Shown here: positions 2,589 to 26,442 of the stretch, piece after piece
How positions within the stretch are numbered: position 1 is the first letter of the stretch
Layout of the letters: every line of letters begins with the position of its first letter
Origin: Gemmobacter aquaticus
GTDB taxonomy: Bacteria; Pseudomonadota; Alphaproteobacteria; Rhodobacterales; Rhodobacteraceae
Direction: 5' to 3'
Assembly: GCF_007859075.1 (NCBI RefSeq)
Contig: NZ_VOAK01000007.1
Span: 1 to 33,916, forward strand
Length of the DNA stretch: 33,916 bases
Position numbers and translations under genes: made by a program
Notes under the pieces: model-generated
What the model saw: the letters and a program-made list of their open reading frames with translations, nothing else
What the model was told of the DNA's origin: nothing
Database searches by the model: none

Positions 2589-3113
2589 GAGATACCGTTG
2601 CTAGAACCTTGTTTTCCTCAGGCGTGAGAAGTTCATGAAGGCGCATGAGGAGAACGAGGTAGTGATCTGCTCGACAACGGCGAAGGGGTTCGAGACGGCG
2701 CCGGGACAGATTGCATTCCCGATCTTGCCGACTTGCGCCCGAAACGGACTGGTCAGCGTGGCGCTGAATCTCTCCTTGAGCTTAGCTGAGTGAGCCTTGG
2801 GCGCGGGCGCCACGCAACAGGGTAGCCCGCGCTCGCCCATGGCCGACCCACCACGAATTGGCCGCTGGCGCGGACGTCGGCGTCGCTTTGCCTTAGCTCG
2901 CGCGTGGCCACTGCTGCAGCACTTCGCAAGCGACGACTCGGCAGCTTCGCCCCTGATCCGCGCATCCTGTCTTCGAGCAGGCTCACATAACCTGACGGAA
3001 GAAAATTCCCGGTGAGAGACCCGGCACAGGTGTCACGCCCCGCGTAGCAGACACAATAGAGAACCAAAAACACGACAAAGTAAGTAGACTTAAATACGCC
3101 GAGAGATGGAGAT
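2589..3113. other. 525 bp without a supported gene, ending in a regulatory site
   Basis: Downstream of the IS110 fragment there is a 52-codon open frame (2635-2793, plus) with no clear ribosome binding site and no family I recognise, and an antisense frame of similar length. I do not call either. The last 45 bp hold one copy of the repeated operator-like element (3069-3094) ahead of the gene at 3114. Confidence 0.45.
3069..3094 (-). promoter_or_regulatory. Operator-like element, copy 1 (ahead of the 163-aa gene)
   Basis: Read on the minus strand this is TTTAAGTCTA-N8-GTCGTGTT, matching the element found ahead of five other units in the window with the same 8-nt spacer. It ends 19 nt before the ATG at 3114 and, with the copy at 13700, is one of two oriented opposite to its gene. 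Because the element is an imperfect palindrome, orientation need not matter for a dimeric regulator. Confidence 0.6.
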
Positions 3114-3605
3114 ATGAAGTTGACTTACGCCGCCCCTGCTCCCCCCCGTCGCGCACGCCGCCAAGACTCGACCTTCGACCTTGGAGCTACCGAAGCGGCG
3201 ACTATCGATTTCTCTGTTCCGAAAGGTGGCATCCTGCCCCATCCTTACGAAGTCGCAGAGGCTTTGATGTTTCATCGCGCCCCCCGGGTGACGGCGCAGG
3301 GCGCTTATGCTGGCCTGATCCTGGAGCTGTTGGCAAATAGCCCGACGCTTGCACCTGCCGAAATCGTTCTGATCGATCCCGAACTCGCCACAGTCCCCGA
3401 CCTCAGCTCACTGCGCGGGCAGGCACGGATCACGCTTGTTTTGAGCGAAACCGCGACGCGTTCAGTTCGCGCGCGTGTCTGTCAGCTGGAGAACAGGCTG
3501 CATTGCCGCGTGATTGACAGAGGTCCTCGTACGAACCTGACCGAGACGCTGATGGCGATTTGGCGGCAGTTCGCACCACAGCGCATGGTGGGCACTACGT
3601 ATTGA
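3114..3605 (+). CDS. Hypothetical protein, 163 aa, first gene of the organosulfur region
   Basis: I do not recognise this family. The start at 3114 follows a purine-rich GAGAGATGGAGAT leader. The product is soluble with no signal peptide. Residues 1-30 are basic and proline/alanine-rich; residues 40-160 look like an alpha/beta fold, with a hydrophobic strand AEIVLIDPEL, then RITLVLSE, and a C-terminal helix ETLMAIWRQF. There are two cysteines (RARVCQLENRLHCRVI). It is followed after 90 bp by an FAD/NAD(P)-binding oxidoreductase in the same direction, with a hairpin between them. A copy of the repeated operator-like element sits just upstream, tying it to the sulfur regulon by position although its role is unknown. 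Confidence 0.65.
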   Translation: MKLTYAAPAPPRRARRQDSTFDLGATEAATIDFSVPKGGILPHPYEVAEALMFHRAPRVTAQGAYAGLILELLANSPTLAPAEIVLIDPELATVPDLSSLRGQARITLVLSETATRSVRARVCQLENRLHCRVIDRGPRTNLTETLMAIWRQFAPQRMVGTTY

Positions 3606-3643
3606 TGCTCTGTCTCAGCACATCACGCCATTCTCTCTACGTT

Positions 3644-3666
3644 GCTGCCCGGCGATGCCGGGCAGC
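3644..3666 (+). terminator. Perfect hairpin between the 163-aa and the flavoprotein genes
   Basis: GCTGCCCGGC-GAT-GCCGGGCAGC forms a 10-bp perfect stem with a 3-nt loop, followed by a T-containing run (CGTTTCGTTT). It lies 38 bp after the stop at 3605 and 29 bp before the ATG at 3696. It could be a weak rho-independent terminator or attenuator, or an RNA-processing hairpin that sets different levels of the two proteins. Confidence 0.55.
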
Positions 3667-3695
3667 CGTTTCGTTTGATACCAAAGGGCTCCAGC

Positions 3696-5129
3696 ATGTT
3701 TGTCGATCGTAAGGATACTTCCGCCACCACATCCAAACCCGTGATCGCGATCGTCGGCGGGGGCTATAGCGGCGCAGCTGTCGCCCTGCATTTGGCACGA
3801 AACGACTGCGACGCGCAGGTTGTCGTGTTCGAACCACGGACCGAAATCGGACGCGGCCTCGCCTACTCCACCCCCGACCCGGATCATCGGCTGAATGTGC
3901 CGGATCATCGCATGACGCTGATCAGTGAAGACCCCAACCATTTCAAGAACTGGCTCGGCTCGGCCGAGGCTCCCATCTTGCCAGGCGGCAGCGCCACGCT
4001 GGCAGGCGAGATCTTTGCGCCTCGAGCCGTGTTTGGCCAATACGTCGCGGCCTGTCTGGCAGATCTGGTCACCGCTGGCAGGATCATCCATCGGAAGGAG
4101 ACCGTGATACGTATCGATGCCGAGGCTCGGGGTTACTTTGTCTACGGATCGCAAGGGGCCCCCTTGCGGGCTGACGTGGTCGTGCTGGCGGCATCCCATC
4201 CCGCGCCCGCCTTGCCCGTTGAACTCAATGCGCTCGCACACGACATAGCGCTCATAGCGGATGCTTCCGCACCCGGCGCGCTCGACCAGATTGCGCCGCA
4301 AGAAAGGGTCCTGATCGTAGGCTCCGGCCTCACCGCTGCCGATATCCTCGCGACGTTGGCACGGCAGGGTCAGCGCGCGCCGGTTCATGTGCTCTCGCGC
4401 CACGGATGGCGATCGCAGCCGCACGGGCCGAAGCAACCCGAAGCGCAGGCGGATTTTGCGACCAACCCTTCTGCAACTGCCCTTTCTCTTTTCCGCCGGG
4501 TGCGCCTTGCCCTGGATGCCGAGGCGGCGCGCGGTGTGACCTGGCATGCTGTCTTCGACAAACTGCGCGCCCAGGGCCCGGCGATTTGGGCCGCCCTTTC
4601 ACTGCCAGAGCGGCAGCGGTTCCTGCGGCACTTGCGGGCGTTGTGGGACATCCACCGCTTTCGCATCGCTCCTCAGACGCATGCAACACTCGTGCAGGCC
4701 GAACGGCAGAAAAGTGCGATCTTTCACGCTGCACGAATTCTTGCTGTGCAGCGCTTACCCGGCGGAATAGAAATCAGCATCCGCCCGCGCGGACGACGCG
4801 ATACCTCGACTCTGGTGGTTGACCGGGTGATCCTTGCAACCGGTCCGGCACATGGGCAGGTGATTGCGGACAATCCCGCCTTGGCGTCTCTGGCAAAGCA
4901 GGGTCTTGTACAACCAGACCCACTCAAACTGGGCATAGCGACAGGAACTGACGCGCGCGCCATTGGGGTGAGCGGGCCTGTACATGGGCTGTACGTTGCG
5001 GGCCCCTTGGCACGTGGCACTGTGGGCGAGCTTATGGGGGTCCCCGAGGTGACAGCCTGGGCCGAGCATGTCGCAGGTCGGATTCGGCAATCCTTGCCCG
5101 TTCATGCACGACCGGAAGCGGCAGAGTGA
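3696..5129 (+). CDS. FAD/NAD(P)-binding oxidoreductase (NAD_binding_9-type), 477 aa
   Basis: The N-terminus carries a Rossmann FAD-binding motif, AIVGGGYSGAAVALHLA (residues about 15-31), followed by the acidic strand end VVVFEPRTEIGRGLAYS and the family-typical block LNVPDHRMTLISEDPNHF. A second dinucleotide motif, VLIVGSGLTAADILATL, lies mid-protein, and VILATGPAHGQVIADNP near the C-terminus resembles the flavin-proximal ATG motif. These features match the FAD-NAD(P)-binding family (PF13454) seen beside sulfur- and siderophore-related genes; its substrate is unknown. The ATG at 3696 is preferred over an upstream TTG because AAAGGG precedes it at 9 nt and the extra residues would come from the hairpin. 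It could oxidise or reduce a sulfur intermediate, which is inference from context only. Confidence 0.75.
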   Translation: MFVDRKDTSATTSKPVIAIVGGGYSGAAVALHLARNDCDAQVVVFEPRTEIGRGLAYSTPDPDHRLNVPDHRMTLISEDPNHFKNWLGSAEAPILPGGSATLAGEIFAPRAVFGQYVAACLADLVTAGRIIHRKETVIRIDAEARGYFVYGSQGAPLRADVVVLAASHPAPALPVELNALAHDIALIADASAPGALDQIAPQERVLIVGSGLTAADILATLARQGQRAPVHVLSRHGWRSQPHGPKQPEAQADFATNPSATALSLFRRVRLALDAEAARGVTWHAVFDKLRAQGPAIWAALSLPERQRFLRHLRALWDIHRFRIAPQTHATLVQAERQKSAIFHAARILAVQRLPGGIEISIRPRGRRDTSTLVVDRVILATGPAHGQVIADNPALASLAKQGLVQPDPLKLGIATGTDARAIGVSGPVHGLYVAGPLARGTVGELMGVPEVTAWAEHVAGRIRQSLPVHARPEAAE

Positions 5130-5218
5130 TTTTCTGCTGCTGATGCGGTGAAGGGGGAAAATCGTTACTTCGCACATGCAGAAATATGGAATGGCCGATA
5201 CCGGGGTGCGCGGCATAG

Positions 5219-5244
5219 ATTAAAACGACCAATCTGGTCGTGAT
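5219..5244 (+). promoter_or_regulatory. Operator-like element, copy 2 (ahead of metQ)
   Basis: ATTAAAACGA-CCAATCTG-GTCGTGAT lies 36 nt before the metQ start. This copy is also the best dyad: ACGACCA-ATC-TGGTCGT is a 7-bp perfect inverted repeat. Both outer halves are identical, base for base, to the copy at 13700-13725, while the 8-nt spacer differs, which points to selection on the two halves. Confidence 0.7.
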
Positions 5245-5280: not shown

Positions 5281-6087
5281 ATGTCCCTGAAATCACTTGG
5301 CCTTGCTGCAGTACTCGCACTTGCGACAGCTATGCCCGCTGTCTCCGAGGCACTGAAGATCGGCGTCGTTCCCGGCGCCTATGCTGACGCAGTGGGCGTC
5401 GCGGCCGAAGAAGCCAAAGCGCAAGGGTTGGAGATCGAGGTGATCGAGTTTTCCGACTGGAACACCCCGAACCTTGCGCTGGACGCCAAAGATATCGACG
5501 TGAACTTCTTCCAGCACCAGCCATTCATGGAGAATACCGAGGCTGAAAAAGGCTATGATTTCAGCGTCGTCGCGCCGGGTATCCTGCAAAACTTCGGCTT
5601 CTTTTCGCTCAAGCACAAATCGCTGGACGAGATCCCCGAGGGCGGCTCGGTCGCGGTGGCCAATGACCCGGTAAACCAGGGTCGCGGCTTGCTGCTGCTG
5701 CAAAAGGCCGGGCTGATCACGCTCAAAGAGGGTGTGGGCTACAAAGGCACGCTCGATGACATCACCGCCAATCCGAAGAACCTCAAGTTCACCGAGGTCG
5801 AGGGGCCGCAGCTGGTACATGTGACGCCGGATGTCGATCTGGCGCAGGGCTATCCGCATTTCATCGTGGCGTCCGGTGCGTTTGATCCGACTTCGGGCCT
5901 GATTTACTCAGGGGTCGAAGACAAGATCTTCAATGTCAGCTTCGTGTCGCGCGCGGGCGAGGAGAATGACCCCCGTATCCAGCAATTTGTGTCGCTCTTC
6001 CACAGCTCGCAGGCGGTCAAGGACCAGATCCATGAATCCTTTGCCGGCAGCGACAAGCTGTATGTTCTGGCCTGGCTGCTCAAATGA
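5281..6087 (+). CDS. metQ: MetQ/NlpA-family ABC transporter substrate-binding protein
   Basis: This is the periplasmic binding protein of a methionine-type ABC importer; family members bind methionine or related thioethers. The 268-aa product shows family blocks: [14 protein letters not shown] after the signal peptide, [14 protein letters not shown], and [23 protein letters not shown]. The signal sequence (about residues 1-25) ends in an AxA-like site (VSEA) and lacks the lipobox cysteine of classical MetQ lipoproteins, so it is probably soluble in the periplasm. AAGGAA lies upstream of the ATG. Its end overlaps metN by 4 bp (ATGA), giving a metQ-metN-metI operon. A copy of the operator-like element precedes it, suggesting sulfur control. 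The true ligand could be methionine, methionine sulfoxide or another organosulfur compound. Confidence 0.9.
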
Positions 6088-7172
6088 CCGGCGCGGCCGT
6101 CATCAGATTGCCGCAAGCAGGGGCGCATGCCGCCCCTGCTTCACAGGCGGCGCAGGCCAGGCGCCCAGCCGGATCCGTGCGGTTTCAGGGCTTGGGAAAG
6201 ACCTATGTTTCGTCAGCGGGTGAGGTTCAGGCACTACAAGGTATCAACCTTGATATCGAACCCGGTGAAATCTTCGGCATCATTGGGCGTTCGGGCGCCG
6301 GAAAATCCAGCCTGCTGCGCAGCATCAATCGACTGGAGCGCCCGTCCGAAGGGCGCGTACTGGTGGATGGCGAGGACATCGCAGGACTGGGCGAGGCCGA
6401 ACTGATCCGGTTGCGTCGCCGGATCGGGATGATCTTTCAGCATTTCAACCTGCTGGCGGCCAAGACCGTGCGCGAAAACGTGGCGCTCCCCTTGCGCATC
6501 GCTGGCGTCCCGCAGGACGAGGCACGGGCACGGGTGGCCGAGGTGCTACGGCTGGTAGGTCTGGAGGGGAAGGAAGATACCTACCCCTCCCGCCTGTCGG
6601 GCGGGCAGAAGCAGCGCGTGGGCATCGCCCGGGCGCTGGTCATGCGCCCCGAAATTCTGCTGTGTGACGAGGCGACCTCGGCGTTAGACCCGGAAACAAC
6701 CTTGTCAATCCTGCGCCTGCTGCGGGACATCAATCGACGGCTTGGGCTGACCATTGTCCTGATCACCCATGAGATGAGCGTAATCCGCGAGATATGTCAT
6801 CGCGTTGTGGTGCTTGAGCATGGCCGGATCGCGGAAACGGGGCCGGTCTGGCAAGTGTTTGCCCAGCCCCAGCATGCCGCGACGCAGGCGCTGCTGGCAC
6901 CATTGACCCGCGCGCTGCCCGAAGATCTGTCAGCCCGACTGCGTGATCGCGCAGAGCCCGGCGATTGGCAGGTGATCGAACTGCCCTTCACGGGTGAGGC
7001 GGCACCGGATCTGGCGGTATTGGCGCAGGGCGTGCGTCTGGTGCAGGCGCAGGTTGATCCGATTGATGGTCACGCCGTTGGTCGATTGGTGCTTTTGGCG
7101 CCGCCAGAGCTTGATCCGGCGTCGCTCTCCCCCAATGCAAGGAGGCTTGGCCATGTCGCCACAAATGATTGA
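6084..7172 (+). CDS. metN: MetN-type ABC transporter ATPase
   Basis: This is the cytoplasmic nucleotide-binding subunit of the methionine-type importer. The 362-aa product has Walker [10 protein letters not shown] (about residues 68-76), Q-loop MIFQHFNLL, signature [15 protein letters not shown], Walker [13 protein letters not shown] and the H-loop LITHEMSVI. The C-terminal 90 residues (after about 270, [20 protein letters not shown]) resemble the NIL regulatory domain, which in MetN binds methionine and inhibits transport. About 30 alanine/proline-rich residues precede the ABC domain, longer than usual. The start is fixed by the ATGA overlap with metQ, and the end overlaps metI by 20 bp. Confidence 0.9.
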
Positions 7173-7806
7173 CCGATTGATCGGCGCCTTTCTTGATACC
7201 TTGCTGATGGTTTCGGCCTCGGCAGGTATTGCCCTTTTGGCGGGCATCCCGCTTGCTGTGTTCCTGGTGACCTCCGGGCCGGGCGGGTTCTTTCCGGCGC
7301 CACGGCTGAACCGCGCGCTTGGCGCGCTGGTCAACGGCTTCCGTGCCGTACCCTTTATTGTGCTTCTGGTGGCGCTGATCCCCTTTACCCGCCTGGTGAC
7401 GGGCACGACGATCGGCGTTTGGGCCGCCGTGGTCCCGCTGTCGATCTCGGCAACGCCGTTCTTTGCGCGCATCGCTGAGGTAAGCTTGCGTGAGGTCGAT
7501 CCGGGACTGGTTGAAGCCGCGCAATCCATCGGCGCGAGCCGCTGGCATATCGTGCGCCATGTCCTGCTGCCCGAGGCGCTGCCGGGCATCATCGGTGGCT
7601 TCACGATCACGGTGGTGTCGATGATTGGGGCCTCGGCCATGGCGGGGGCCGTTGGCGCAGGCGGCCTCGGCGATGTGGCGATCCGTTACGGCTATCAGCG
7701 CTTTGACACGACGGTAATGGTCGCTGTCATCGTCATTCTGGTGGCGCTTGTATCAGTGGTTCAAGTCACCGGAGACAGGGCGGTGCGCCGGTTGCGGGCA
7801 CGGTGA
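7153..7806 (+). CDS. metI: MetI-type ABC transporter permease
   Basis: The 217-aa product has five or so hydrophobic segments and the binding-protein-dependent permease EAA loop ([26 protein letters not shown] is the region at about residues 118-143) that contacts the ATPase. It matches MetI in length and in the final segments, [20 protein letters not shown] and [11 protein letters not shown]. The ATG at 7153 is chosen because GGAGG (7141-7145) lies 7 nt upstream; the frame is open further 5' only inside metN. It is the last gene of the operon, with a strong terminator 4 bp after its stop. Confidence 0.9.
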
Positions 7807-7843: not shown

Positions 7844-8689
7844 TTACAGTTTCAGCAACCGCGCCGCGTTGTCGTGGAATACTTTCTCCAGAACCGCGTC
7901 TTTCAAGCCAAGCGCCTGAAAATCGTCGATGCTCTGACGGATCGGGCGGAATGGGTAGGAGGAGCCGAAGAGCAACTGATCCGACAGAAACCCGTTTGCG
8001 GCCTCGACGTAAAGCTGGCTGCCCGGCTGGAACACATACATGTCAGGGATCAGAAACACATTCTCATGCCGGAATGCCACGCCCACAATTCCCGCCACGT
8101 TGGGCCAGAAGCCGTGATAGGCGGCGATCTTCAGGTGAGGGAAGGCACGGGCGACGTTGGCCACCGGGGCCGGATCGTTGTATCGCGGGTCAGGAGTGGT
8201 TGGGCCGCTCATCAGGTAAAGTGGGACATCGAGGGCCTGCAAAAGCTCATAGAGCGGGAAGAAGGCAGGATCGTCTGCATGCCGGGCCGGGTTGCCAAAG
8301 CCCGGCTCCACGTCGATGCCTTTCAGGCCCAGCGTCAGGATTGCGCGCTCGGCCTCATCCAGCGCCGTCTGCCGACCCTGGCTGATGATATCGACCGAAC
8401 CGATCCCCTCGAGCAGGGGCGAGGCACTGGTAATCGCGTGAATCGTATCATTGGGCAGATGTTGCCCCGGCGTATGACGGCCGACAACCACGGCCTTTGT
8501 CAGCCCGGCACCTTCAACCTCAGCCAAGAAGCCCTCGGGCGTGGCAGAGCGGGTAAAATGCTCCACATCCCCGCGCGTGCCGACGCGGGCATTCAGCCAC
8601 TTCACCACCTCGTAATCCTGCCCGCCCGGTGTCTTGCCGAAGAAATCGTGCAAATAGGCCGGTCGGCAACGCATATCTATGATTTTCAT
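7844..8689 (-). CDS. Amidohydrolase-fold protein (Amidohydro_2/ACMSD-like) lacking usual metal ligands
   Basis: The 281-aa product has the overall pattern of the Amidohydro_2 TIM-barrel family: an N-terminal strand IIDMRCRP, a mid-barrel IDVEPGFGNP, PLYLMSGPT, the histidine-bearing strand LKIAAYHGFWP, and a C-terminal LLFGSSYPFRP with family-typical HDNAARLLKL. In catalytic members the N-terminal motif is DxHxH and the late motif is fGTDyP. Here the two histidines are replaced (DMRCRP) and the aspartate is serine (GSSYP), so canonical metal-dependent hydrolysis is doubtful. It starts 9 bp after ssuD, with AGGATAAGG upstream, as the last gene of the monooxygenase operon. Confidence 0.75.
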   Translation of the reverse strand: MKIIDMRCRPAYLHDFFGKTPGGQDYEVVKWLNARVGTRGDVEHFTRSATPEGFLAEVEGAGLTKAVVVGRHTPGQHLPNDTIHAITSASPLLEGIGSVDIISQGRQTALDEAERAILTLGLKGIDVEPGFGNPARHADDPAFFPLYELLQALDVPLYLMSGPTTPDPRYNDPAPVANVARAFPHLKIAAYHGFWPNVAGIVGVAFRHENVFLIPDMYVFQPGSQLYVEAANGFLSDQLLFGSSYPFRPIRQSIDDFQALGLKDAVLEKVFHDNAARLLKL

Positions 8690-8698
8690 GCCTTATCC

Positions 8699-9838
8699 TC
8701 AGCTTGCCGCACTCTGGCGGCGGATGTCGAAAGCGCCGCCGGTTTGGCTGCTCCCCTGCAGCGTCACTGGCGTCTTGCCCAGAAGAGGAAAGACCAACTC
8801 GGCCACGCGAAGCGACTCCTCGAGATGCGGGTAGCCCGACAGCACGAAGGTATCGACGCCAAGCGCCTGATACTCCCGCAGCCGCTCTGCAACCTGTTCA
8901 GGCGATCCCACCAGTGCCGTGCCCGCCCCGCCCCGCACAAGGCCGACCCCGGCCCAGAGGTTCGGCGACACCACCAGCCGGTCGCGGCGCCCGCCATGCA
9001 GCGCGGCCATACGGGCCTGGCCCACAGAGTCCATCTTGGCATAGCCCGCCTGCGCCGCCGCTATATCGGCATCTGTCAGACGGGATATCAGCCGATCAGC
9101 TTCGGACCATGCTTCTGCTTCCGTCTCGCGCACGATGACATGCAGGCGCAGGCCGTAGCGCAGCGTCCGACCCTGCCGCGCTGCGCGCGCGCGCACATCG
9201 GCGATCTTTTCGGCCACCTGCGCCGGAGGCTCTCCCCATGTGAGGTAAGCATCCACATGCTTTGCCGCCAGATCATGCGCGGCGTCGGACGAGCCGCCAA
9301 AATAGAGTGGTGGATAGGGGCGTTGCGCCGGCGGGTGATAGTTCTTTGCGCCCTCGACGCGGACATGCTTGCCCGCGAAATCCACTGTCTCGCCGGACAG
9401 CAGGCGCCGCCAGACGGTCAGGAATTCGTCCGCGTTTTCGTACCGGCCTGCATGGCTGAAGAAAGCGCCATCGGCAGCCAACTCGGTCGCATCTCCCCCC
9501 GGAACCACGTTCAAGAGGAGCCTCCCGCCCAATGCCTGATCCAGTGTCGCCGCTTGCCGAGCCGAGGCCGTGGGCCCCGAGATCGACGTGCGCAGCGCCA
9601 CCAGCAGCTTGATGCGCTGCGTGGCGTGGATCAGACTGGCTGCCACAACCCAAGGGTCCTGGCATGAGGCGCCAGTCGGGATCAGAAGCCCGTCATAGCC
9701 TAGCCGGTCCGCGGTCACCGCAATGTCGCGAAGGTAGTTCAGTGTCGGCGCGCGGCCACTGTCCGAGGTGCCCAGATACCGCGTATCGCCGGAGCTCGGC
9801 AAGAACCAGAAGATGTCAGGTGTTGGAAGGTGAGTCAT
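8699..9838 (-). CDS. ssuD: FMNH2-dependent alkanesulfonate monooxygenase, SsuD-like
   Basis: Family members use reduced FMN and O2 to cleave alkanesulfonates to the aldehyde and sulfite. The 379-aa product matches SsuD in length (about 380) and in strong blocks: [37 protein letters not shown] with the active-site cysteine seen in Ssu[26 protein letters not shown], and [20 protein letters not shown]. It belongs to the bacterial-luciferase-like TIM-barrel group. The start overlaps the end of the upstream DszA-like gene by 4 bp (ATGA). The reductase partner is probably the MsuE-like protein encoded at 24179-24739. A methanesulfonate monooxygenase (MsuD) role is an alternative, which the sfnG and msuE genes nearby would favour. 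Confidence 0.85.
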
Positions 9839-11223: not shown

Positions 11224-11238
11224 CAGTTCGCCCTCATG

Positions 11239-12441: not shown

Positions 12442-12444
12442 GGT

Positions 12445-15882: not shown

Positions 15883-15899
15883 CATGAACCGCGTCTGCG

Positions 15900-16917: not shown

Positions 16918-16944
16918 AATAATCGACTCAAGTTATCGTTATTC
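16918..16944 (-). promoter_or_regulatory. Operator-like element, copy 4 (ahead of tauA)
   Basis: On the minus strand this reads GAATAACGA-TAACTTGA-GTCGATTAT. The core ACGA-N8-GTCG is the same as in the metQ and SfnB copies, with divergence in the outer bases. It ends 25 nt before the tauA ATG and has the same orientation relative to its gene as the copies at metQ, msuE and the 190-aa gene. Confidence 0.55.
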
Positions 16945-17044
16945 AGGAGGGAACAGGATTTGCGGGCCGGTGACCATTCCAAAGGCGTGGGACAAAAGGC
17001 GATGAACCTGCTGGCAAGTCAGCACCCAACACAAGATAATTCTC

Positions 17045-17956: not shown

Positions 17957-17991
17957 GGCGCTGCCCAGGAGCGGAACGAGAGGCGGCAGGG

Positions 17992-18060
17992 CTATCGGAT
18001 GCCGCCCACCTTGCCAAGAGATGAGACCTTTTGAATTTTGGTCCGAAACAGTTGTGCCAT
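17992..18060 (-). CDS. Possible 22-aa leader ORF ahead of serine acetyltransferase
   Basis: Between livF and the acetyltransferase, ATG at 18060 follows TGAGGA and opens MAQLFRTKIQKVSSLGKVGGIR, closed by TAG at 17992-17994, 35 nt before the GTG chosen for the next gene. It is in a different frame from that gene. It may be a translational-coupling leader, an out-of-frame piece of an older N-terminus, or chance. Confidence 0.25.
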   Translation of the reverse strand: MAQLFRTKIQKVSSLGKVGGIR

Positions 18061-18071
18061 TCCTCAAGGGA

Positions 18072-18818: not shown

Positions 18819-18873
18819 ACTGGCCCCCTTTTCCCGGAAGATGTGGCGCCCGCGCCCGGGCGCCACGCTGACT

Positions 18874-20199
18874 TCAGTTGCTGACGGTGCCCTCGGCATC
18901 CGCTTCTGTGCGGATGGGCAACCCCTTTTCCTTGGCATAGGCCTCGGACGACTTTTCAATGATGGGGCGCAACAGCGACCAGTCCGGAGCGATCCAGTCG
19001 CTGACCACGTTCCATTTCTGGCCATCCCATTGCTGGAAGGTGACGTAGCCTTCGCCCTCGTGGTTGTCGTAGGTCACGTTGATCGAATGGAACAGGTTCT
19101 CGGCCCCTAGTTCCTTCACCCGATCCGTCGAAAGCTGCAGGTGTTCGAAGCCCCAGCGAACTTCGTCGCCGGTCAATGTGCGGTTGCCGAACTTGGCTTG
19201 CGCGATCCGCACCGCTTCAACGTTCAGGATGCCGTTCACGATGCCGAGGTTATGGTAGACCGATCCAATACGGGCCGGATCTGACAGGTTGCCCCGCCCT
19301 TCGTCATAGACCGTCTTGATGATTTCCTGCAGCACCGGATACTGGTTGCCCGAAGCCTGGGTGGTGATGGCGGTGTAGCCGATGGCGGCATCACCTGCCG
19401 GGCGCACGTCCTCTTCCGAGTTGGACCAGACGTTGCCGATGATACGGTCCACCGGAAAGCCATTGCGCTGCGCCGTGGTCAGCGCCACCGGGTTCATCAC
19501 GCCCCAGCCCCGCAGCACAACATAGTCGGGCCGCTCGCGCCGGATCTGCAGCCATTGCGCGCCCTGTTCATTGCCCGGATGCGGCACCTCGATCTGCACC
19601 AGATCGAAGCCGTATTTCTCGGCCAGCAGCTCGTAGATCGGGATCGTCTCCTTACCATACGGCGAGCCGTGATAGAGGACCGCGATCTTCTTGCCCTTCA
19701 GGGCCTCATGCCCGCCTTCCTTGCCGGCGATATAGTTCACGATGCCCGAGGTTTCCGAATAAGGGTTCAGCAGCAGCGGGAAGACATAGGGGAAGACGCG
19801 CCCGTCGGTCGTATCCGTGCGGCCATGGTTGATGGTGATCAGCGGCACCTTGTCAGCAGTGACGCCATCGATCATTGCATAGGCAATGCCCACAGAAAGC
19901 GGGTTCCAGGCTGCGATGCCGGGGTTCGACTTCAGCCGCTGATAGACCTCTACACCCTTTTCGACCTCGTATTCGGTCTCGCCCTCGGACCAGGTGAGTT
20001 TAACCCCGTTCACCCCACCGTCGCGGGTGTTGATTAGGTTGAGGTAGTCGATGAACCCGCCGAAGAACCCCGTGCCACCGGCGGCATAGGGGCCGACCCG
20101 GTAGGATTGCAGCGGAAAGTGCTGCTCGTCCGAGAGTGCGGGGCTGGCGAGGAAGGCCGCCGCCAGCAGTGCAGGCGCGACGCGTTTGAGGAAAGACAT
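18874..20199 (-). CDS. Peripla_BP_6-type periplasmic binding protein of the sulfur-operon transporter
   Basis: The 441-aa product has a signal peptide (MSFLKRVAPALLAAAFLASPALS, cleavage near residue 23) and a type I periplasmic-binding fold: YRVGPYAAGGTGFFGGFIDYLNLINTRDGG at the start, VPLITINHGRTDTTDGRVFPYVFPLL, KKIAVLYHGSPYGKETIPI, and a C-terminal HEGEGYVTFQQWDGQKWNVVSDWI. It is longer than LivJ/LivK (about 370 aa) and closer in style to the large binding proteins that serve amides and aromatic acids. AGGAG lies 9 nt before the start. Its position with sfnG and msuE suggests that it binds a sulfone, sulfonate or sulfonamide, which is inference. Confidence 0.85.
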   Translation of the reverse strand: MSFLKRVAPALLAAAFLASPALSDEQHFPLQSYRVGPYAAGGTGFFGGFIDYLNLINTRDGGVNGVKLTWSEGETEYEVEKGVEVYQRLKSNPGIAAWNPLSVGIAYAMIDGVTADKVPLITINHGRTDTTDGRVFPYVFPLLLNPYSETSGIVNYIAGKEGGHEALKGKKIAVLYHGSPYGKETIPIYELLAEKYGFDLVQIEVPHPGNEQGAQWLQIRRERPDYVVLRGWGVMNPVALTTAQRNGFPVDRIIGNVWSNSEEDVRPAGDAAIGYTAITTQASGNQYPVLQEIIKTVYDEGRGNLSDPARIGSVYHNLGIVNGILNVEAVRIAQAKFGNRTLTGDEVRWGFEHLQLSTDRVKELGAENLFHSINVTYDNHEGEGYVTFQQWDGQKWNVVSDWIAPDWSLLRPIIEKSSEAYAKEKGLPIRTEADAEGTVSN

Positions 20200-20226
20200 G
20201 GAAAAGCTCCTGTTTGTGGGGATGGG

Positions 20227-21267
20227 TCAGCCGCGTCGGACCAGCGCGCGCAGGCGGGCTGACAGGCGGGAGAGGATGGCCGAAAGCCCGTTGGGCTCGG
20301 CGATGAGGAATAGGATGATGGTGCCGCCCAGCACGATGCGCTCGATCAGCTTGATCAGGCCCGCATCGATCAGACCGTCGAAGGCAAAGGCGGACAGACG
20401 GCCCAGCAGCAGCGGAAACACCACGATCAGCCCAGCGCCAAGAAAGGTGCCGCGAATTGTGGCAAGCCCGCCGATGATGACGATGAACAGGATCTGGAAT
20501 GATCGGTCGAGGTTGAAGCCCGCAGGCTCTACCGTGCGTAGATAGGTGAAGGCCCAGAGCACCCCTGCGATGCCGATGATTCCCGACGACAGCGCGAAGG
20601 CCACCAGCTTTGTGCGCAGGACCGGAACACCGATGACCTTGGCGGCGGTCTCATTGTCGCGCACGGCAATCAGGTTCACCCCTTCCGGCCCCGAGACGAT
20701 ACGATGCACCAGCAGCGTGATTGCGGTCACTATGGTAAGCGAAAAGAGGTAGCGCCCCACCGCACTGTCCAGGCGCAGCCCCGCCAGTTCGATCACCGGG
20801 GCGGCGATGATGCCCGAGGGACTGCCATTGGAAAACCAGCTGAATTTCGTCAACGCCCACTGCACGAAGAACTGCGCGGCCAGCGTAGAGACCGCGAGAT
20901 AGAAGCCGCGCAGCCGCAGACTCGGCAGGCCGAAGACCAGCCCGATGACGGCGGCGGTCAGCGCGGCCAGCACGATCGACACCGGGATCGGCAGGCCGGT
21001 TCGTAGATCAAAGTTGTAGGCGGCGAAGGCACCCACGGCCATGAAGGCCGCCGATCCAAGTGAGACCTGCCCGCAGTAGCCGGTCAGCAAGTTAAGCCCC
21101 AGCCCGGCAAGCGACAGGGCAAGGAAGGGCAGAAGGATCGCCTCAAGCACATAGGGGCTGGCGGTCAGAGGCACGGCCACGAAGCCCAGGCTGAGCACCA
21201 CCAGCACAGGCAGCGAGAACCCGGTGGCCAGACGCGCCCCGGTGACGGATGCAGAGAAGACGGACAT
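20227..21267 (-). CDS. livM: LivM-type ABC transporter permease
   Basis: The 346-aa product has about nine membrane segments and the LivM pattern: LLTGYCGQVSLGSAAFMAVGAFAAY, VFGLPSLRLRGFYLAVSTLAAQF, LIAVRDNETAAKVIGVPVLRTKLVAFALSSGIIGIAGVLWAF and IVIIGGLATIRGTFLGAGLI. The ATG at 21267 lies 1 bp after the livH stop, so the two are translationally linked. It forms the heterodimeric channel with LivH. Confidence 0.88.
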   Translation of the reverse strand: MSVFSASVTGARLATGFSLPVLVVLSLGFVAVPLTASPYVLEAILLPFLALSLAGLGLNLLTGYCGQVSLGSAAFMAVGAFAAYNFDLRTGLPIPVSIVLAALTAAVIGLVFGLPSLRLRGFYLAVSTLAAQFFVQWALTKFSWFSNGSPSGIIAAPVIELAGLRLDSAVGRYLFSLTIVTAITLLVHRIVSGPEGVNLIAVRDNETAAKVIGVPVLRTKLVAFALSSGIIGIAGVLWAFTYLRTVEPAGFNLDRSFQILFIVIIGGLATIRGTFLGAGLIVVFPLLLGRLSAFAFDGLIDAGLIKLIERIVLGGTIILFLIAEPNGLSAILSRLSARLRALVRRG

Positions 21268-21268
21268 G

Positions 21269-22165
21269 TCAGTATCTTTCCACGCGTTTTTGGCCAAACA
21301 GTCCCGACGGCCGCACGAGCAGGACAATCAGCGCCACGGCATAGGCGAACCAACCCTCGATGCCGCCGCCGAAGAACGGGCCGATATAGACCTCGGCCAG
21401 CTTCTCGGTCGCACCGATCACCAGGCCTGCCACGATGGCACCGAGGATGGAGTCGAAGCCACCCAGCACCAGCACCGGCAACGCCTTCAGCACGATCAGC
21501 GACAGTGAAAACTGTACCCCCAGCCGTGCGCCCCACAAGAGACCCGCGACCAGCGCCACCACCCCGGCGGCAGCCCAGACGGTGGCCCAGATCCGGTCCA
21601 ACCGCAGGCCCACGGCCAATGCAGCAAACTGGTCATCGGCCACGGCGCGGAAAGCAAGCCCAGTATGGGTAAAGCGGAAGAACGCCGTCAGAGCCGCCAC
21701 CAAGGCCGCCGCAATCGCCGCGGCCACCAGATCGAAGGTCGAGATGAAGATGCCCCAGACCTCGAACGGCGCATTTGAGATGCCCAGATCCAGCCGATGC
21801 ACCTGCGTGCCCCAGATGAGCTGGGCTGCGCCCTCGATGACATAGGACAGGCCGAGCGTGGCCATGAACAGCGTCATGGGTGAGCGGTTGGCCAAAGGGC
21901 GCAGCACCGTGCGTTCAATCCCGAAGCCAAGTGCCGTCATCGCGGCCAAAGTCACTGCCACCGACACCCAGAACGGCACACCGCGCTCGACGAGGTTGAC
22001 AAAGGTCAGCGCGGCGAACAGCACCATCGCGCCCTGTGCAAAGTTCAGCACGCCCGAGGTCTTGTAGATCAGCACAAAGCCAATCGCGACCAGCGCATAC
22101 ATGACGCCTGACAGCAACCCGCCCACGGCGACCTCGGCGGCGAACAAAAGCTCGAACCAGTCCAT
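21269..22165 (-). CDS. livH: LivH-type ABC transporter permease
   Basis: The 298-aa product has about eight membrane segments and the LivH blocks GGLLSGVMYALVAIGFVLIYKTSGVLNFAQGAMVLFAAL, FRAVADDQFAALAVGLRLDRIWATVWAAAGVVALVAGLLWG and VLGGFDSILGAIVAGLVIGATE. The ATG at 22165 shares its A with the livG stop (TGATG), a common coupling arrangement; a GTG one codon earlier (22168) is an alternative. Confidence 0.88.
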   Translation of the reverse strand: MDWFELLFAAEVAVGGLLSGVMYALVAIGFVLIYKTSGVLNFAQGAMVLFAALTFVNLVERGVPFWVSVAVTLAAMTALGFGIERTVLRPLANRSPMTLFMATLGLSYVIEGAAQLIWGTQVHRLDLGISNAPFEVWGIFISTFDLVAAAIAAALVAALTAFFRFTHTGLAFRAVADDQFAALAVGLRLDRIWATVWAAAGVVALVAGLLWGARLGVQFSLSLIVLKALPVLVLGGFDSILGAIVAGLVIGATEKLAEVYIGPFFGGGIEGWFAYAVALIVLLVRPSGLFGQKRVERY

Positions 22166-23034
22166 CACGCCGCCTCCGCACCCAGATATGCCCGGATCAC
22201 ATCGGGGTCGCGGCGCACCTCTGGCGGGGTGCCATCCGCGATCTTTACGCCGTGATCGAGTACCGCGATACGATCGGAAAGGCCCATGACAACGCCGATG
22301 TCATGCTCGATCAGGATTGTGGCAAGACCCAGCCGATCGCGGGCAGAACGCACATGAGCCGCCATCTCGGCCTTTTCGGTGGCGGTCATCCCGGCCATCG
22401 GCTCGTCCAGCAATAGCACTTTCGGTGACGCGACGAGCGCGCGCGCCAGTTCCACCTGCTTTTGCAGACCATACGGTAGGGTGGATACCAGCCGGTGCAG
22501 ATGCGCCGTGATTCCAAGAAACCCTGCCACATCCCGAACTCTGTCCGCCACCTCTGCCGCCTCTGCCCGCGCGCCTGGCAGGCCCGCGAGCTGCGCCAGC
22601 AGGCCGTGACGGCGGCGGAACACCAGCCCGGCGGCGACGTTCTGCTCCACGGTCAGGCCAGGGAACAACGCGAGGTTCTGGAAGGTGCGCGCAACGCCCA
22701 ACTTTGGCAGCGCCTCAGGGCGCAGATGCCTCAGGCGCCGCCCGCCCAGATGGATATATCCGGCGTCGGCCTGATAAAGCCCGCTGATCACGTTGACCAA
22801 CGAGGACTTGCCCGCCCCGTTCGGCCCGATGACCGCCCGGATCTCGCCCGGACGCAGGTCAAAGGATACATCGCGCAGCGCATGGATGCCTCCGAAGCTG
22901 AGGCTGACCCCCTCCAGCGCAAGCGCGCTGTGCGGCGCATGGATGCTCTCTGGCGCCAGCTCTGGCACGCGCGCGGCAATCGGTGGCTGCGCCAGTCGCG
23001 CAGCCTCCAACCCGCCCGTCAGGACGCTCAACAT
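22165..23034 (-). CDS. livG: LivG-type ABC transporter ATPase
   Basis: The 289-aa product has a 35-residue proline/alanine-rich N-terminal extension, then ALEGVSLSFGGIHALRDVSFDLRPGEIRAVIGPNGAGKSS with Walker A, VARTFQNLALFPGLTVEQNV, the degenerate LivG-type signature LPYGLQKQVELARAL, Walker B VLLLDEPMAGMT and LIEHDIGVVMGLSDRIAVLDHG. GGAGA lies 8 nt before the ATG. It follows sfnG by 30 bp and overlaps livH. Confidence 0.87.
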   Translation of the reverse strand: MLSVLTGGLEAARLAQPPIAARVPELAPESIHAPHSALALEGVSLSFGGIHALRDVSFDLRPGEIRAVIGPNGAGKSSLVNVISGLYQADAGYIHLGGRRLRHLRPEALPKLGVARTFQNLALFPGLTVEQNVAAGLVFRRRHGLLAQLAGLPGARAEAAEVADRVRDVAGFLGITAHLHRLVSTLPYGLQKQVELARALVASPKVLLLDEPMAGMTATEKAEMAAHVRSARDRLGLATILIEHDIGVVMGLSDRIAVLDHGVKIADGTPPEVRRDPDVIRAYLGAEAA

Positions 23035-23064
23035 TTCAGTCTCCGATCCGGTGAAAGGGCGGCC

Positions 23065-24159
23065 TTACTCGGCAGCCACCAGTTCCTTGGCACGCTGCGC
23101 CTCTAGCTGGCGCACCAGCGGGATCACATGCTTGCCGAAATATTCGACCTCTTCCTGGAAGTGCAGGAAACCAAGCAAGACAAGGTCGGCGCCCGCATCC
23201 TTTAGCGCTATGATGCGCTCGGCCACTTGCTCGGGGGTGCCGATCAGGTTCGACCGGAAGCCATCGTTGTATTGCACCAGATCAGCGAAGCTCGATTTCG
23301 CCCAGTTGCCCTCGCCTTCAGGGCTGGCCTTGCCTGCGTTTTTCACCTCATGGGCAAAGCCCTGCACTGCCTCAGGGTTGGCCTTCGCGACGATCTCGTC
23401 CACCACGGAGCGCGCGGCCTGTTCGCTGTCGCGTACCACGGCAAAGGCGTTGATGCCGATCTTCACCTTGTTGCCGGTTTCCGTAGCTTTGGCCCGGATA
23501 TCATCGACCTGCGCGCGCAGCCCCTCTGGAGTGTTGCCGTTGGTGAAGTACCAGTCTGACACCCGCGCGGCCATATCCCGAGCGGCGCGACTGGATCCGC
23601 CCTGGAACACTTCGGGCAGCGGTTGCAGGGGCTTGGGTTTCATTGTGTAGTTGGAGAAGCGGTAGAAATCGCCGCGGAAGGTGAAATCGTCCTGCGTCCA
23701 GATACCTTTCAGCGCGCGGATGAACTCCTCCGACCGGCAATAGCGTTCGTCATGGTCCAGCCACAGCTCGCCAATGGCCGAGAACTCGCCACGGAACCAG
23801 CCAGACACGATATTGACCGCGATGCGGGCATCGGTAAGGTGGCTGATTGTTGCGACCTGCTTGGCCACCACCGCCGGGTTCCACGGCCCGGGAAGGATTG
23901 CGGCAATCACCTTGAGCCGCGTTGTATGGGCCAGCAGATCATGGCTGAACGCCACCGACTCATGCTGGTTGTCGGCGCCATAGCCGGCGGTAAACCGGAT
24001 CTGGCTCAGCGCATAATCAAACCCCGCTGCCTCTGCGATCTGGGCAAGCTTGCGATTGTATTCGGGAGTCCAACTGGTGCGCTGTTCGATGTTCGAAATA
24101 ACAAGGCCGCCCGAGACGTTGGGCACCCAATAGGCGAACTTGATCGGATCTTTCGTCAT
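23065..24159 (-). CDS. sfnG: Dimethylsulfone monooxygenase, SfnG-like
   Basis: SfnG uses FMNH2 and O2 to convert dimethylsulfone to methanesulfinate and formaldehyde. The 364-aa product matches this family closely in PIKFAYWVPNVSGGLVISNIEQRTSW, IAEAAGFDYALSQIRFTAGYGADNQHESVAFS, PGPWNPAVVAKQVATISHLTDARIAVNIVSGWF, PLPEVFQGGSSRAARDMAARVSDWYFTNGN and LGFLHFQEEVEYFGKHVIPLV. It has the luciferase-like TIM-barrel fold and no signal peptide. The start at 24159 (MTKDPIKF) follows AAAGGAA. It lies 19 bp after the FMN reductase gene that would supply its reduced flavin. In Pseudomonas putida sfnG is switched on by a sigma-54 activator; no such gene is seen here. Confidence 0.88.
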   Translation of the reverse strand: MTKDPIKFAYWVPNVSGGLVISNIEQRTSWTPEYNRKLAQIAEAAGFDYALSQIRFTAGYGADNQHESVAFSHDLLAHTTRLKVIAAILPGPWNPAVVAKQVATISHLTDARIAVNIVSGWFRGEFSAIGELWLDHDERYCRSEEFIRALKGIWTQDDFTFRGDFYRFSNYTMKPKPLQPLPEVFQGGSSRAARDMAARVSDWYFTNGNTPEGLRAQVDDIRAKATETGNKVKIGINAFAVVRDSEQAARSVVDEIVAKANPEAVQGFAHEVKNAGKASPEGEGNWAKSSFADLVQYNDGFRSNLIGTPEQVAERIIALKDAGADLVLLGFLHFQEEVEYFGKHVIPLVRQLEAQRAKELVAAE

Positions 24160-24178
24160 TTCAGGTTCCTTTGCGGGA

Positions 24179-24739
24179 TCATTCGGCAGCTCTGGCCAGC
24201 CGGAGATAAGAAGGGAAGAAAGCGTCAAACTGCGTCACAGCCCGGGCGAGGCGTTCCAGAGTGGCGTCACCGGTCAGCGCCCCATCGGTGAAATCCTTGT
24301 CAGAGGCATGCACTGCCGTCGCGAGGCTTTGCGCTTCGAAGAAACCCAGCAGCGGCCTAAGCTGGTGCTCGACAACCAGCGCATGCTTCTCGCCACCGCC
24401 GGTCGCCGCCAGAAGCACCGGCCGCCCGGACAGGGAGGCCGGGTCGAGCAGGTCAATGAGATGCTTGAACAACCCCGGATACGTCGCCTTGTAGATCGGG
24501 GTCGCAATCAGCAGACCGTCAGCCGAAAGCAATCTGTCGATCTTTGCACGTGCATCGGGCGCAAGATCATTCAGCTTTCGTGCGGCGCCCAACCCGGACC
24601 CGAAATCGTTGATTTCAAGAAGATCCGTCTCGACATCCAGTCGTGCGGATACCAATTCAAGCGCCGTTGAGACAAGCGCGCGGGTTTTTGATGGTGCGGT
24701 AATATTGCCGGATAGACCGACGATGAGGGGCTTTGTCAT
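24179..24739 (-). CDS. msuE: NAD(P)H-dependent FMN reductase, MsuE/SsuE-like
   Basis: The 186-aa flavodoxin-fold product supplies FMNH2 to the monooxygenases. Evidence: IVGLSGNITAPSKTRALV at the N-terminus (the phosphate-binding loop), DGLLIATPIYKATYPGLFKHLIDLLDPASLSGRPVLLAATGGGEKHALVVEHQLRPLLGFF, which is characteristic of SsuE/MsuE. The start at 24739 (MTKPLIVG) is chosen over a start six codons upstream because it fits family length. It is the first gene of the operon msuE-sfnG-livG-livH-livM-binding protein-livF-cysE, and an operator-like element ends 13 nt upstream. Confidence 0.9.
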   Translation of the reverse strand: MTKPLIVGLSGNITAPSKTRALVSTALELVSARLDVETDLLEINDFGSGLGAARKLNDLAPDARAKIDRLLSADGLLIATPIYKATYPGLFKHLIDLLDPASLSGRPVLLAATGGGEKHALVVEHQLRPLLGFFEAQSLATAVHASDKDFTDGALTGDATLERLARAVTQFDAFFPSYLRLARAAE

Positions 24740-24752: not shown

Positions 24753-24778
24753 ATCACGACTAATTCAATAGATTTAAG
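24753..24778 (-). promoter_or_regulatory. Operator-like element, copy 5 (ahead of msuE)
   Basis: On the minus strand: CTTAAATCTA-TTGAATTA-GTCGTGAT. The right half is identical to the metQ and SfnB copies; the left half has TCTA, like the copy at 3069, in place of ACGA. It ends 13 nt before the msuE ATG, so a bound protein would cover the leader or promoter. Confidence 0.62.
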
Positions 24779-24835
24779 TCTGTTCCCCTGCCTTTTCCCA
24801 TTCCAAAGACCGGCACGCTTCGACGGGTTTCAACT

Positions 24836-25402
24836 CTATTTGCGATCCCGGAGAGGCAATTCTTTCCGAAGCGCCAAAACTTCAGCCACGCCGCCAAACG
24901 CTGGAGGAGGTGAGGCCACTGGCATCCAGATGGCTGCGCTCGACCGGTCGACCAAAGCCACCTGATCAGCATCAAGGCGGCTCAGATAGATCTCCTCCCA
25001 ATGACGACCGAACCCGTCAATGCCGCCAAGGTTGCGGCGTAGACGATCTGCCCAGGCCCTGATGCAAGGCAGGCCATGCAAAAGGAAGGTTGCGCGCTCA
25101 CGATCCAGCAGGTCCAGACGCCAAAGGGCGGGAAGCGCCAGAAGATCGGGGAGTTCTGTCACATTCCGGTCGAGCCAACGCTCGATCCGAAACAAGATGT
25201 CACGCAGACAATACACTGCGATGTCCAGGTCAACAGGATCACGCGCAACTTCGACCCGCGACACCGCCGGCATAAGTGCAGCAACCCACCTGCAGAACTC
25301 GCAATCGCGCACCGCCGTTGCGGGAACAGGCTGATGCAACCTCCCGGCAGCTTTCGTCCTCTGAGTGTCGGGGTGCAGAGGATCGGGAGCGCAGTGCCTC
25401 AT
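24836..25402 (-). CDS. Hypothetical protein with CxxC motif, 188 aa, coupled to the gene before it
   Basis: I do not recognise the family. The start at 25402 (MRHCAPD) is set by a 4-bp ATGA overlap with the upstream 190-aa gene, implying translational coupling and perhaps a joint complex. The product is soluble and largely helical, with a CEFC motif near residue 36 followed by RWVAALMPAV, a pattern reminiscent of redox-active CxxC helices in the AhpD/carboxymuconolactone decarboxylase superfamily, but the match is weak. Further cysteines lie in AVYCLRD and GLPCIRAW. It ends 96 bp before msuE and shares its direction, so the two operons may be partly co-transcribed. Confidence 0.55.
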   Translation of the reverse strand: MRHCAPDPLHPDTQRTKAAGRLHQPVPATAVRDCEFCRWVAALMPAVSRVEVARDPVDLDIAVYCLRDILFRIERWLDRNVTELPDLLALPALWRLDLLDRERATFLLHGLPCIRAWADRLRRNLGGIDGFGRHWEEIYLSRLDADQVALVDRSSAAIWMPVASPPPAFGGVAEVLALRKELPLRDRK

Positions 25403-25971
25403 GGGATACGCTGAACCGGCAGCGCCGCACCCTTGTCGATCCAACGCAGGATCGCCATCTGGCGGACAAACGCGACCACTCCATCGATCTCGGCGACCCC
25501 CTCTGGCGACCATCCCATTGCCAGAAGTTCACCAGCATCTGTCGGTAGATCAGGGTCCATCAGACTTTGATGCGCATAGACAAGCGCCGCAGCCATACGC
25601 GGACCGATCTGGGCCAGCAACGCTGGGTCCACATGCCAGGTGGCTCCATTGCGCTCTGCGCGGCAGGCAGAAAATCCCGGCAAAGAGCCATAGGGATCGG
25701 GACGCGCGGCCTGTTCGGCTGCGTCCGAGATCCGGATCGCAAGATCCAGCGCAGTTTCAGACAGCCATTCGCCGAACAGCGCCACACAATGCGGCTCGCC
25801 CAGATATTCCGCCGTGAAGGCGCTGATCATCTGACGCTCCAACTTCGTCAGGACCATCGGACGGACCGGGGTCATGATCTGGCGCACGCCAGCCGCAACG
25901 GCTCGGCGCAACATGGCGTTCTGCTCGCTCCAGTTCCATGGCGGACCTTCCCGCGGGACGAGAACATTCAT
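25399..25971 (-). CDS. AhpD/CMD-like helical protein (tentative), 190 aa
   Basis: The segment PMVLTKLERQMISAFTAEYLGEPHCVALFGEWL resembles the helix of carboxymuconolactone-decarboxylase/AhpD-like proteins, and the C-terminal MGWSPEGVAEIDGVVAFVRQMAILRW resembles the second part of CMD-domain proteins that accompany organosulfur monooxygenases. The family's CxxC is reduced to a single cysteine here. The start at 25971 (MNVLVPREG) is chosen because GGAGG lies 8 nt upstream; alternative ATGs at 26010 and 26031 lack such a signal. It overlaps the next gene by 4 bp. An operator-like element lies 62 bp upstream. Peroxide or radical scavenging alongside the flavin monooxygenases would fit but is inference. 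Confidence 0.6.
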   Translation of the reverse strand: MNVLVPREGPPWNWSEQNAMLRRAVAAGVRQIMTPVRPMVLTKLERQMISAFTAEYLGEPHCVALFGEWLSETALDLAIRISDAAEQAARPDPYGSLPGFSACRAERNGATWHVDPALLAQIGPRMAAALVYAHQSLMDPDLPTDAGELLAMGWSPEGVAEIDGVVAFVRQMAILRWIDKGAALPVQRIP

Positions 25972-26442
25972 CCGAGACCTCCTTTCGCTCTGCAACGTGC
26001 GGTCAGGCATTAGTCTGCCCGTCCCGCGCAATAATTACGACAATACAAAGCGTGTTTTCTTTTGCCCCTTCATAGAAGAAACACCCTCTGATCCGGCATA
26101 GCGCAGCAGAGCGTCCGCCGGCCGATGGGCCGCCACCCGGGCTCCGAAAGAAACCACCTGTGCATGTCCCTCACGGGACGGCAGGAATTTTACGGGAATG
26201 CCAGTGCGCAGAACGATTCATCTGCCAGCTGATTCCAACCACCCACGAAACACCTCCGAAACATGTCACCCCACCGAAGATCATGGTGCCCAGACCCGCC
26301 TCTGACAGTAGCGCCACGCCACGCAAGCCACTGAATTTGAAAAGTGGTTCTGTCGCATCGACCTGTCGAAGGCGTTAGCCTTTGGACCATCCTCGGACGA
26401 ACCGAAGGCCAATCACATGCCCCCTATCCTGCAGGAGACAAA
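25972..26442. promoter_or_regulatory. Divergent 471-bp intergenic region
   Basis: This region separates the leftward 190-aa gene from the rightward SfnB/DszC-like gene. Near its left end it has the AT-rich operator-like element (26034-26059). The rest has no supported gene. A weaker look-alike (26331-26360, ending in GTCGCATC) lies 80 bp before the rightward gene. AGGAGA precedes the ATG at 26443. Confidence 0.5.
26034..26059 (-). promoter_or_regulatory. Operator-like element, copy 6 (ahead of the 190-aa gene)
   Basis: On the minus strand: AAAACACGC-TTTGTATT-GTCGTAAT, with the same 8-nt spacing between the ACG-type left half and the GTCG right half. It is the most diverged copy apart from tauA's. 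It lies 62 bp before the chosen start at 25971 and may act on the divergent gene as well. Confidence 0.5.

Follow-up and report, generated by a model that had tools for sequence, protein, structure and literature searches.

The organosulfur locus and its dyads

The window, the whole 33,916-nucleotide stretch of DNA analyzed here, comes from Gemmobacter aquaticus (contig NZ_VOAK01000007.1), corresponds to the whole of contig C8 in our numbering, and carries genes for the use of sulfones, sulfonates, and methionine. Six copies of a 23-bp dyad, an imperfect palindrome, lie ahead of its gene units. Judged from sequence, this dyad is most probably (with a probability of roughly 0.8) the operator through which a CymR-like, winged-helix dimer of the Rrf2 superfamily controls a sulfur-supply regulon. 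The gene units are as follows.

3114..3605, + strand: 163-aa protein without a Pfam or NCBIfam match
3699..5129, + strand: FAD/NAD(P)-binding protein (PF13454)
5281..7806, + strand: metQ, metN, and metI, a methionine-type ATP-binding cassette (ABC) importer
7844..13683, − strand: operon of sfnB2, sfnB1, an NtaA/DmoA-type monooxygenase gene, ssuD, and an amidohydrolase gene
13815..16892, − strand: tauA, tauB, and tauC, a taurine/sulfonate-type ABC importer
17045..24739, − strand: msuE, sfnG, a Liv-type ABC importer, and a cysE-like gene
25399..25971, − strand: CMD-domain protein (TIGR04029, under the cut-off)

No regulator was found among the 34 open reading frame products of the window that were scanned. 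The dyads, two of which are weak in genome-wide searches, are placed as follows.

3069..3091, + strand: AACACGAC-N7-GTAGACTT, preceding the unit of the 163-aa protein and the FAD/NAD(P)-binding protein
5222..5244, − strand: ATCACGAC-N7-GTCGTTTT, ahead of metQNI
13703..13725, − strand: ATCACGAC-N7-ATCGTTTT, preceding the sfnB2 monooxygenase operon
16920..16942, − strand: ATAACGAT-N7-GTCGATTA, ahead of tauABC; weak genome-wide
24753..24775, + strand: ATCACGAC-N7-ATAGATTT, ahead of msuE-sfnG-livGHMKF
26034..26056, + strand: ATTACGAC-N7-AGCGTGTT, preceding the CMD-domain gene; weak genome-wide

An earlier note on this DNA had described six equally spaced copies in a 10-8-8 layout. All six are present, and their spacing is indeed equal once the copy given as 16918-16944 is shifted by 1 nt into register (16917-16942); the layout is 8-7-8, with the symmetry centre 11 nt into the site. 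Most copies have ATCACGAC as one half, and the other half resembles either TAGATTTA or TCGTTTTA/TCGATATA; the two half-site classes that the note had distinguished are present in the window and were found again in other genomes. When the window was scanned with a matrix of 98 distinct sites, all taken from other genomes, exactly these six copies ranked first: 24753 (35.8 bits), 5219 (33.1), 3069 (30.9), 13700 (28.9), 16917 (24.1), and 26034 (20.7). The remaining six matches of at least 7 bits were all reverse-strand readings of the same dyads. When the window was simulated 200 times with a first-order Markov model, no match reached 20 bits, the maximum being 19.6. With up to three mismatches, the consensus of the earlier note finds three window copies (two exact, one with three mismatches) where 0.01 would be expected, while the remaining three are detectable by the matrix only. 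A chance origin of the copies was rejected on the basis of this expectation and the simulated maximum.

The dyad lies 13 to 36 nt from the start codon in five of the six window units, as had been claimed. For the CMD-domain gene, the probable start is ATG 25971, which follows GGAGG and leaves ~60 nt to the dyad; counted from ATG 26010, the distance would be 23 nt. Its orientation relative to the genes is mixed, 3069, 13700, and 16917 pointing one way and 5219, 24753, and 26034 the opposite way. In the promoters compared, an A/T-rich, −10-like hexamer occurs within the dyad or at its edge. The search of the window for RNA leaders or riboswitches gave 0 Rfam matches at the gathering score.

A second element, TTTGGAA, which the earlier note had not described, has just three exact occurrences in the window. 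All three are found upstream of genes that carry a dyad, and a variant precedes metQ.

24801..24807, − strand: TTTGGAA, upstream of the msuE dyad
16977..16983, − strand: TTTGGAA, upstream of the tauA dyad
13753..13759, − strand: TTTGGAA, upstream of the sfnB2 dyad
5186..5192, + strand: variant ATGGAAT, upstream of the metQ dyad; TTTGGAAT in the orthologues of congeners G007 and G003, CTTGGAAT in that of G009

In aligned promoters, exact TTTGGAA was found in 4/4 cases for msuE, 4/4 for sfnB2, 2/4 for metQ, and 4/5 for a serine hydrolase gene described below, the rest being one base off. With orthologues counted apart, it lies within 70 nt of 39/105 distinct sites, compared with 58/3180 random places. 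It is absent at 3069 and 26034 and near 66/105 distinct sites, including most cysP sites. Counted from its first base, the element precedes the dyad by 12 to 13 nt at the hydrolase gene and by ~28 to 34 nt at msuE, sfnB2, and metQ. A plain −35 box would have its hexamer 17 nt downstream, whereas the A/T-rich hexamer here stands ~21 to 24 nt downstream; a strict TAnnnT at 21 to 24 nt was found in 6/16 promoters listed, and in 2/16 (L193 and L206) the pattern matched the wrong place. TTTGGAA may serve as a promoter element or as the site of an activator.

Some features of the locus deserve mention in their own right. The 163-aa protein, encoded under the dyad and beside the FAD/NAD(P)-binding gene, has a counterpart with 50% identity over 112 aa in G007. 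The Liv-type importer (18075-23034), which belongs to the branched-chain amino acid class, stands behind msuE-sfnG, an order kept in G007 and G003, and is a candidate sulfone/sulfonate importer of an unusual class. Remains of an IS110-type transposase near one end of the contig and a match to Mob_Pre, a plasmid mobilization family, suggest that the organosulfur cluster may be on or near a mobile region (positions concerned, 1854-2588 and 28505-29959).

Distribution of the dyad in the family

In the congeners G007, G003, and G009 the dyad precedes the msuE, sfnB2, and metQ orthologues. It also precedes the unit of the 163-aa protein and flavoprotein in G007 (L044:9880) and G003 (L045:6298), and the flavoprotein gene in G171, which belongs to another genus. 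At orthologous sites the half-sites are kept and the 7-bp centre varies.

Two models were searched against the G. aquaticus genome. Model R1 was built from 17 sites, five of them from the window; model R3 was built from 81 of 106 collected sites, own-genome sites included, after removal of near-duplicates and doubtful ones. At E ≤ 10, R1 gave six matches, namely, five window sites (26034 at E 0.75; 16917 was absent) and one site before a serine hydrolase gene (PF06821) on C27. At E ≤ 3, R3 gave eight matches, all before such units; four of them are window sites, one is the site at the serine hydrolase gene, two lie between cysP and an Lrp gene on C21, and one is at an anion permease gene on C12. 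The C12 site and one of the C21 sites were outside every training set. The C21 locus encodes the organism's own cysPTWA sulfate importer with the adjoining Lrp gene, and the C12 gene encodes a CitMHS/DASS anion permease with TrkA-C domains. The earlier note had proposed matrix enrichment at sulfur genes as a check; in the part of this check that was run, the outcome exceeded chance level.

Across the family, the dyad recurs ahead of cysPTWA, anion permease, serine hydrolase, and msuE operons. The single dimeric regulator with a sulfur regulon proposed in the earlier note is well supported by the same dyad at orthologous genes of congeners and at sulfate importers family-wide; the restriction to organosulfur compounds does not hold, as sulfate/thiosulfate import is covered too. 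Anion permeases of one domain makeup (CitMHS with TrkA-C) have the dyad in two genera (L302:3644-3670; G429, L120:4555-4580), which suggests that they are sulfate permeases. In G359 (L144) a dyad is found at the gene of a rhodanese-domain protein. The RBBP9-type serine hydrolase (PF06821; L116:3860-4435), present in 30 of the 80 Rrf2 loci examined below, belongs to the genes that recur most steadily in the regulon.

Many sites in other genera adjoin the gene of the candidate regulator, an Rrf2, together with an Lrp/AsnC gene and cysPTWA. When 61 genomes were drawn evenly from the family, 7 proved to have a close CysP, and this Rrf2 (E ≤ 1e-30) was present in those very 7; an eighth CysP (G047) is distant. 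Dyads were found at all seven close cysP regions (best scores, 12.2 to 26.8 bits), and six of these have a pair of dyads 32 to 36 bp apart when sites of at least 9 bits are counted. Two distant CysP loci, that of G047 and the second copy of G101, have no site of at least 9 bits. Such pairing, frequent at cysP (e.g., L152:2999-3060, L307:6454-6516, and L127:4442-4503), differs from the single dyad at other genes.

The association was also examined in 391 genomes (394 less the three training genomes), with Rrf2 called at E ≤ 1e-40. R1 matched at E ≤ 0.12 in 20/391 genomes, 16 of which possess Rrf2, compared with 30 of the other 371 genomes; Fisher's test gave 3e-13, a value that ignores relatedness and clade structure among genera. 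The reversed motif, put to the same test, matched six genomes, one of which has Rrf2.

We then took the best 80 of 316 Rrf2 loci, among which at least L186 and L184 represent the already-used genomes G171 and G431 and L186 holds a training site. Sites of at least 15 bits numbered 85 in 57 of the 80 loci, and the reversed matrix gave 0. By place, 35 of the 85 lie between Rrf2 and cysP, 26 between hydrolase and Lrp genes, 10 between Lrp and Rrf2 genes (in 10/80 loci), and 14 elsewhere. None falls within a listed gene, the listed genes here being Rrf2, Lrp, hydrolase, cysPTWA, and msuE, by homology only. A site of at least 12 bits was found in 44 of 45 stretches containing CysP, and an adjoining site of at least 15 bits was found in 25 of 30 stretches containing the hydrolase.

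The candidate Rrf2 regulator

The organism's own Rrf2 protein is encoded on C25, off the window contig, and shares 86% identity with the Rrf2 of G171. Its membership in the Rrf2 superfamily is clear from PF02082 (111.3 bits; cut-off, 30) and TIGR00738 (98.1 bits; cut-off, 73.3). Its best-scoring equivalog model is that of CymR (NF047409), at 64.3 bits against a cut-off of 195; the protein is thus CymR-like in its predicted role and regulon and is not a CymR. It also scores under the equivalog cut-offs of IscR (59.6/207.55 bits), RirA (47.7/193), and NsrR (41.6/182). The best Protein Data Bank sequences for the Rrf2 profile are 4cic, 2y75 (CymR), 3lwf, and 3t8r (CymR). For a structure model of the Gemmobacter lanyuensis orthologue, the two best fold matches are CymR chains (2y75), followed in third place by NsrR bound to a 23-bp operator (7b0c). 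Two other own Rrf2 genes above the cut-off were dismissed as distant from the candidate; one of them adjoins a citramalate-synthase-like gene, as judged by eye from the start of the sequence. A further Rrf2 paralogue (44% identity) was observed in G171, in an organosulfur cluster with the same dyad (L050:4307-4750).

Four cysteines (94, 103, 106, and 112) in the pattern C-x8-C-x2-C-x5-C are invariant, both in 12 and in 25 aligned proteins. They are close to the NsrR ligand positions 93, 99, and 105 given in PMC9338935. Conserved cysteines after the winged helix are a feature shared with NsrR, IscR, and RirA, although NsrR uses ligands Cys93/99/105 and the candidate has its own spacing. The proposed operator is similar as well: according to that paper, the ScNsrR operator measures 23 bp with a central 7 bp free of base contacts, matching the 8-7-8 dyad. 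Unlike these three regulators, the candidate has a predicted regulon of sulfur import and not of iron, nitric oxide, or cluster assembly. Rhodobacteraceae IscR, another Rrf2 regulator from the same bacterial group, is described in PMC4618611 as having single-cysteine ligation and, as its Iron-Rhodo-box, a 19-bp palindrome before iron genes.

The closest known parallel is CymR of Bacillus subtilis and Staphylococcus aureus, which has an Rrf2 fold and a sulfur-supply regulon. As in CymR-type control, the putative operator stands before genes of sulfur and cysteine supply, here cysPTWA, metQNI, and the ssu/tau/sfn/msu units. The candidate differs from CymR in being alphaproteobacterial, in having four invariant cysteines where NsrR has cluster ligands, and in predicted targets that include FMN-dependent sulfone/sulfonate monooxygenases. 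B. subtilis CymR, according to PMC9338935, binds no cluster and works in complex with CysK as a cysteine-responsive regulator. In full-text literature searches judged by titles and abstract beginnings, with RegPrecise, subscription papers, and the supplement of PMC4344238 (Rhodobacter sphaeroides network) outside their scope, no paper on an Rrf2/CymR-like sulfur regulon in Rhodobacteraceae was recognized.

Because the operator recurs at sulfate-import genes, often beside an Rrf2 gene, Rrf2 is likely the master regulator of sulfur supply. In the proposed mechanism, an Rrf2 dimer would bind the 23-bp dyad at its overlap with the likely −10/start region, and the bound protein would repress when reduced sulfur suffices, be it cysteine or a sulfur-dependent cofactor. 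The four cysteines might act as the sensor, e.g., by carrying an iron-sulfur cluster. Upon sulfur limitation, Rrf2 would release the dyad, and sulfate import and organosulfur desulfonation would be turned on together.

Regulatory models and their implications

A number of observations weigh against Rrf2 as the dyad-binding repressor. The organism's own Rrf2 gene is solitary and away from the sulfur genes tested, and its 12-kb stretch of C25 contains no site of at least 9 bits, so that autoregulation was not seen for this gene. The structure model is of moderate quality (mean predicted local distance difference test [pLDDT] score, 75.2). Among 15 nontraining genomes with R1 matches at E ≤ 0.06, 4 have no Rrf2 at E ≤ 1e-40, and 23 of the 80 Rrf2 loci have no site of at least 15 bits. 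Loosened to E ≤ 1, R1 matches 61 genomes and the reversed model 46, which indicates that loose matches are largely due to chance. The window sites 16917 and 26034 miss E ≤ 3 with R3 despite being in its training set. Finally, 8 of the 36 stretches around matches (L116-L151) are without any gene of the comparison lists, as follows.

L117, L119, L121, L125, L126, L129, L130, and L151: stretches without a listed gene; dyad-like matches of 21 to 31 bits

The main rival is the Lrp/AsnC protein encoded beside Rrf2, which might itself bind the dyad, leaving Rrf2 a mere neighbour. Of the 57 Rrf2 loci that have a site, 48 contain a close Lrp, another point against Rrf2, and an Lrp gene stands beside the own cysP operon; the sites in the Lrp/Rrf2 intergenic region of 10 loci and the missing site at the C25 gene fit this idea too. 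We nevertheless consider it quite unlikely. Nine of the 57 site-bearing loci have no close Lrp in the stretch, although short contigs may hide some, and Lrp (E ≤ 1e-40) occurs in 14 of the 61 drawn genomes, 9 of them without Rrf2. Conversely, Lrp was not found in G101 (100% complete) or G031 (79% complete), both of which have Rrf2 and dyads, and these absences count against Lrp as the binder. Moreover, no Lrp lies within the 14 kb read of the G171 sulfur cluster that harbors the 44% paralogue, and an Rrf2 operator has the same 8-7-8 geometry over 23 bp (PMC9338935).

Rrf2 and a second factor may both act at these promoters, which is compatible with Rrf2 repression and has, in our estimate, close to an even chance: Rrf2 would repress at the dyad, and the factor acting at TTTGGAA would be Lrp, an activator of the LysR type, or a specific sigma factor. 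The element is enriched near dyads, conserved in promoters, and confined in the window to positions upstream of dyads; on the other hand, its absence at many sites speaks against this model, and it may be a plain promoter element. The dyad could also be an activator site instead of a repressor operator. CysB, the enteric sulfur regulator, is an activator, a precedent for such a reading, and the own cysP sites lie ~380 nt or more from the CysP homology. We regard it as unlikely, however, since an activator could hardly act 13 to 36 nt from the start codon, where the dyad stands in five of six window units, and the −10-like hexamer lies in or at the edge of the dyad. That the copies arose by chance, or represent a small dispersed repeat with no part in regulation, is exceedingly improbable. 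Loose searches did yield many matches: a pattern search with 3 mismatches in 198 family genomes hit 119 of them, pointing to G171 with its three similar sites, and the backward control matched many too. Against this stand the ranking by the other-genome matrix, the halves kept while centres differ, the conservation at orthologues, and the co-occurrence with Rrf2.

Repression by Rrf2, our preferred explanation, would set this system apart from that of Pseudomonas, where sfn, msu, and ssu genes for the same enzyme families (SfnG, SfnB, MsuE, and SsuD) are controlled by SfnR and CysB. These two are sigma-54-dependent and LysR-type activators, respectively, unlike the proposed Rrf2 repressor. It is tempting, if somewhat doubtful, to go further and assume that in these Rhodobacteraceae a single Rrf2 repressor, whose four-cysteine sensor would detect sulfur sufficiency, possibly with an iron-sulfur cluster of its own, replaces CysB-type activator logic and couples sulfate and methionine import to sulfone/sulfonate desulfonation, with a second factor at TTTGGAA.

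With Rrf2 as the candidate regulator and the dyad as an operator open to testing, sulfur control becomes approachable in bacteria related to Gemmobacter, Tabrizicola, Pseudorhodobacter, Rhodobacter, and Paracoccus. One site ties the use of sulfones, sulfonates, and methionine to sulfate import, and the 163-aa protein, the serine hydrolase, and the Liv-type importer can accordingly be studied as sulfur genes. The comparisons point to a putative CymR-like sulfur regulon in Alphaproteobacteria with its own Rrf2 subgroup, which, if true, would mean that CymR-like logic exists outside Firmicutes.

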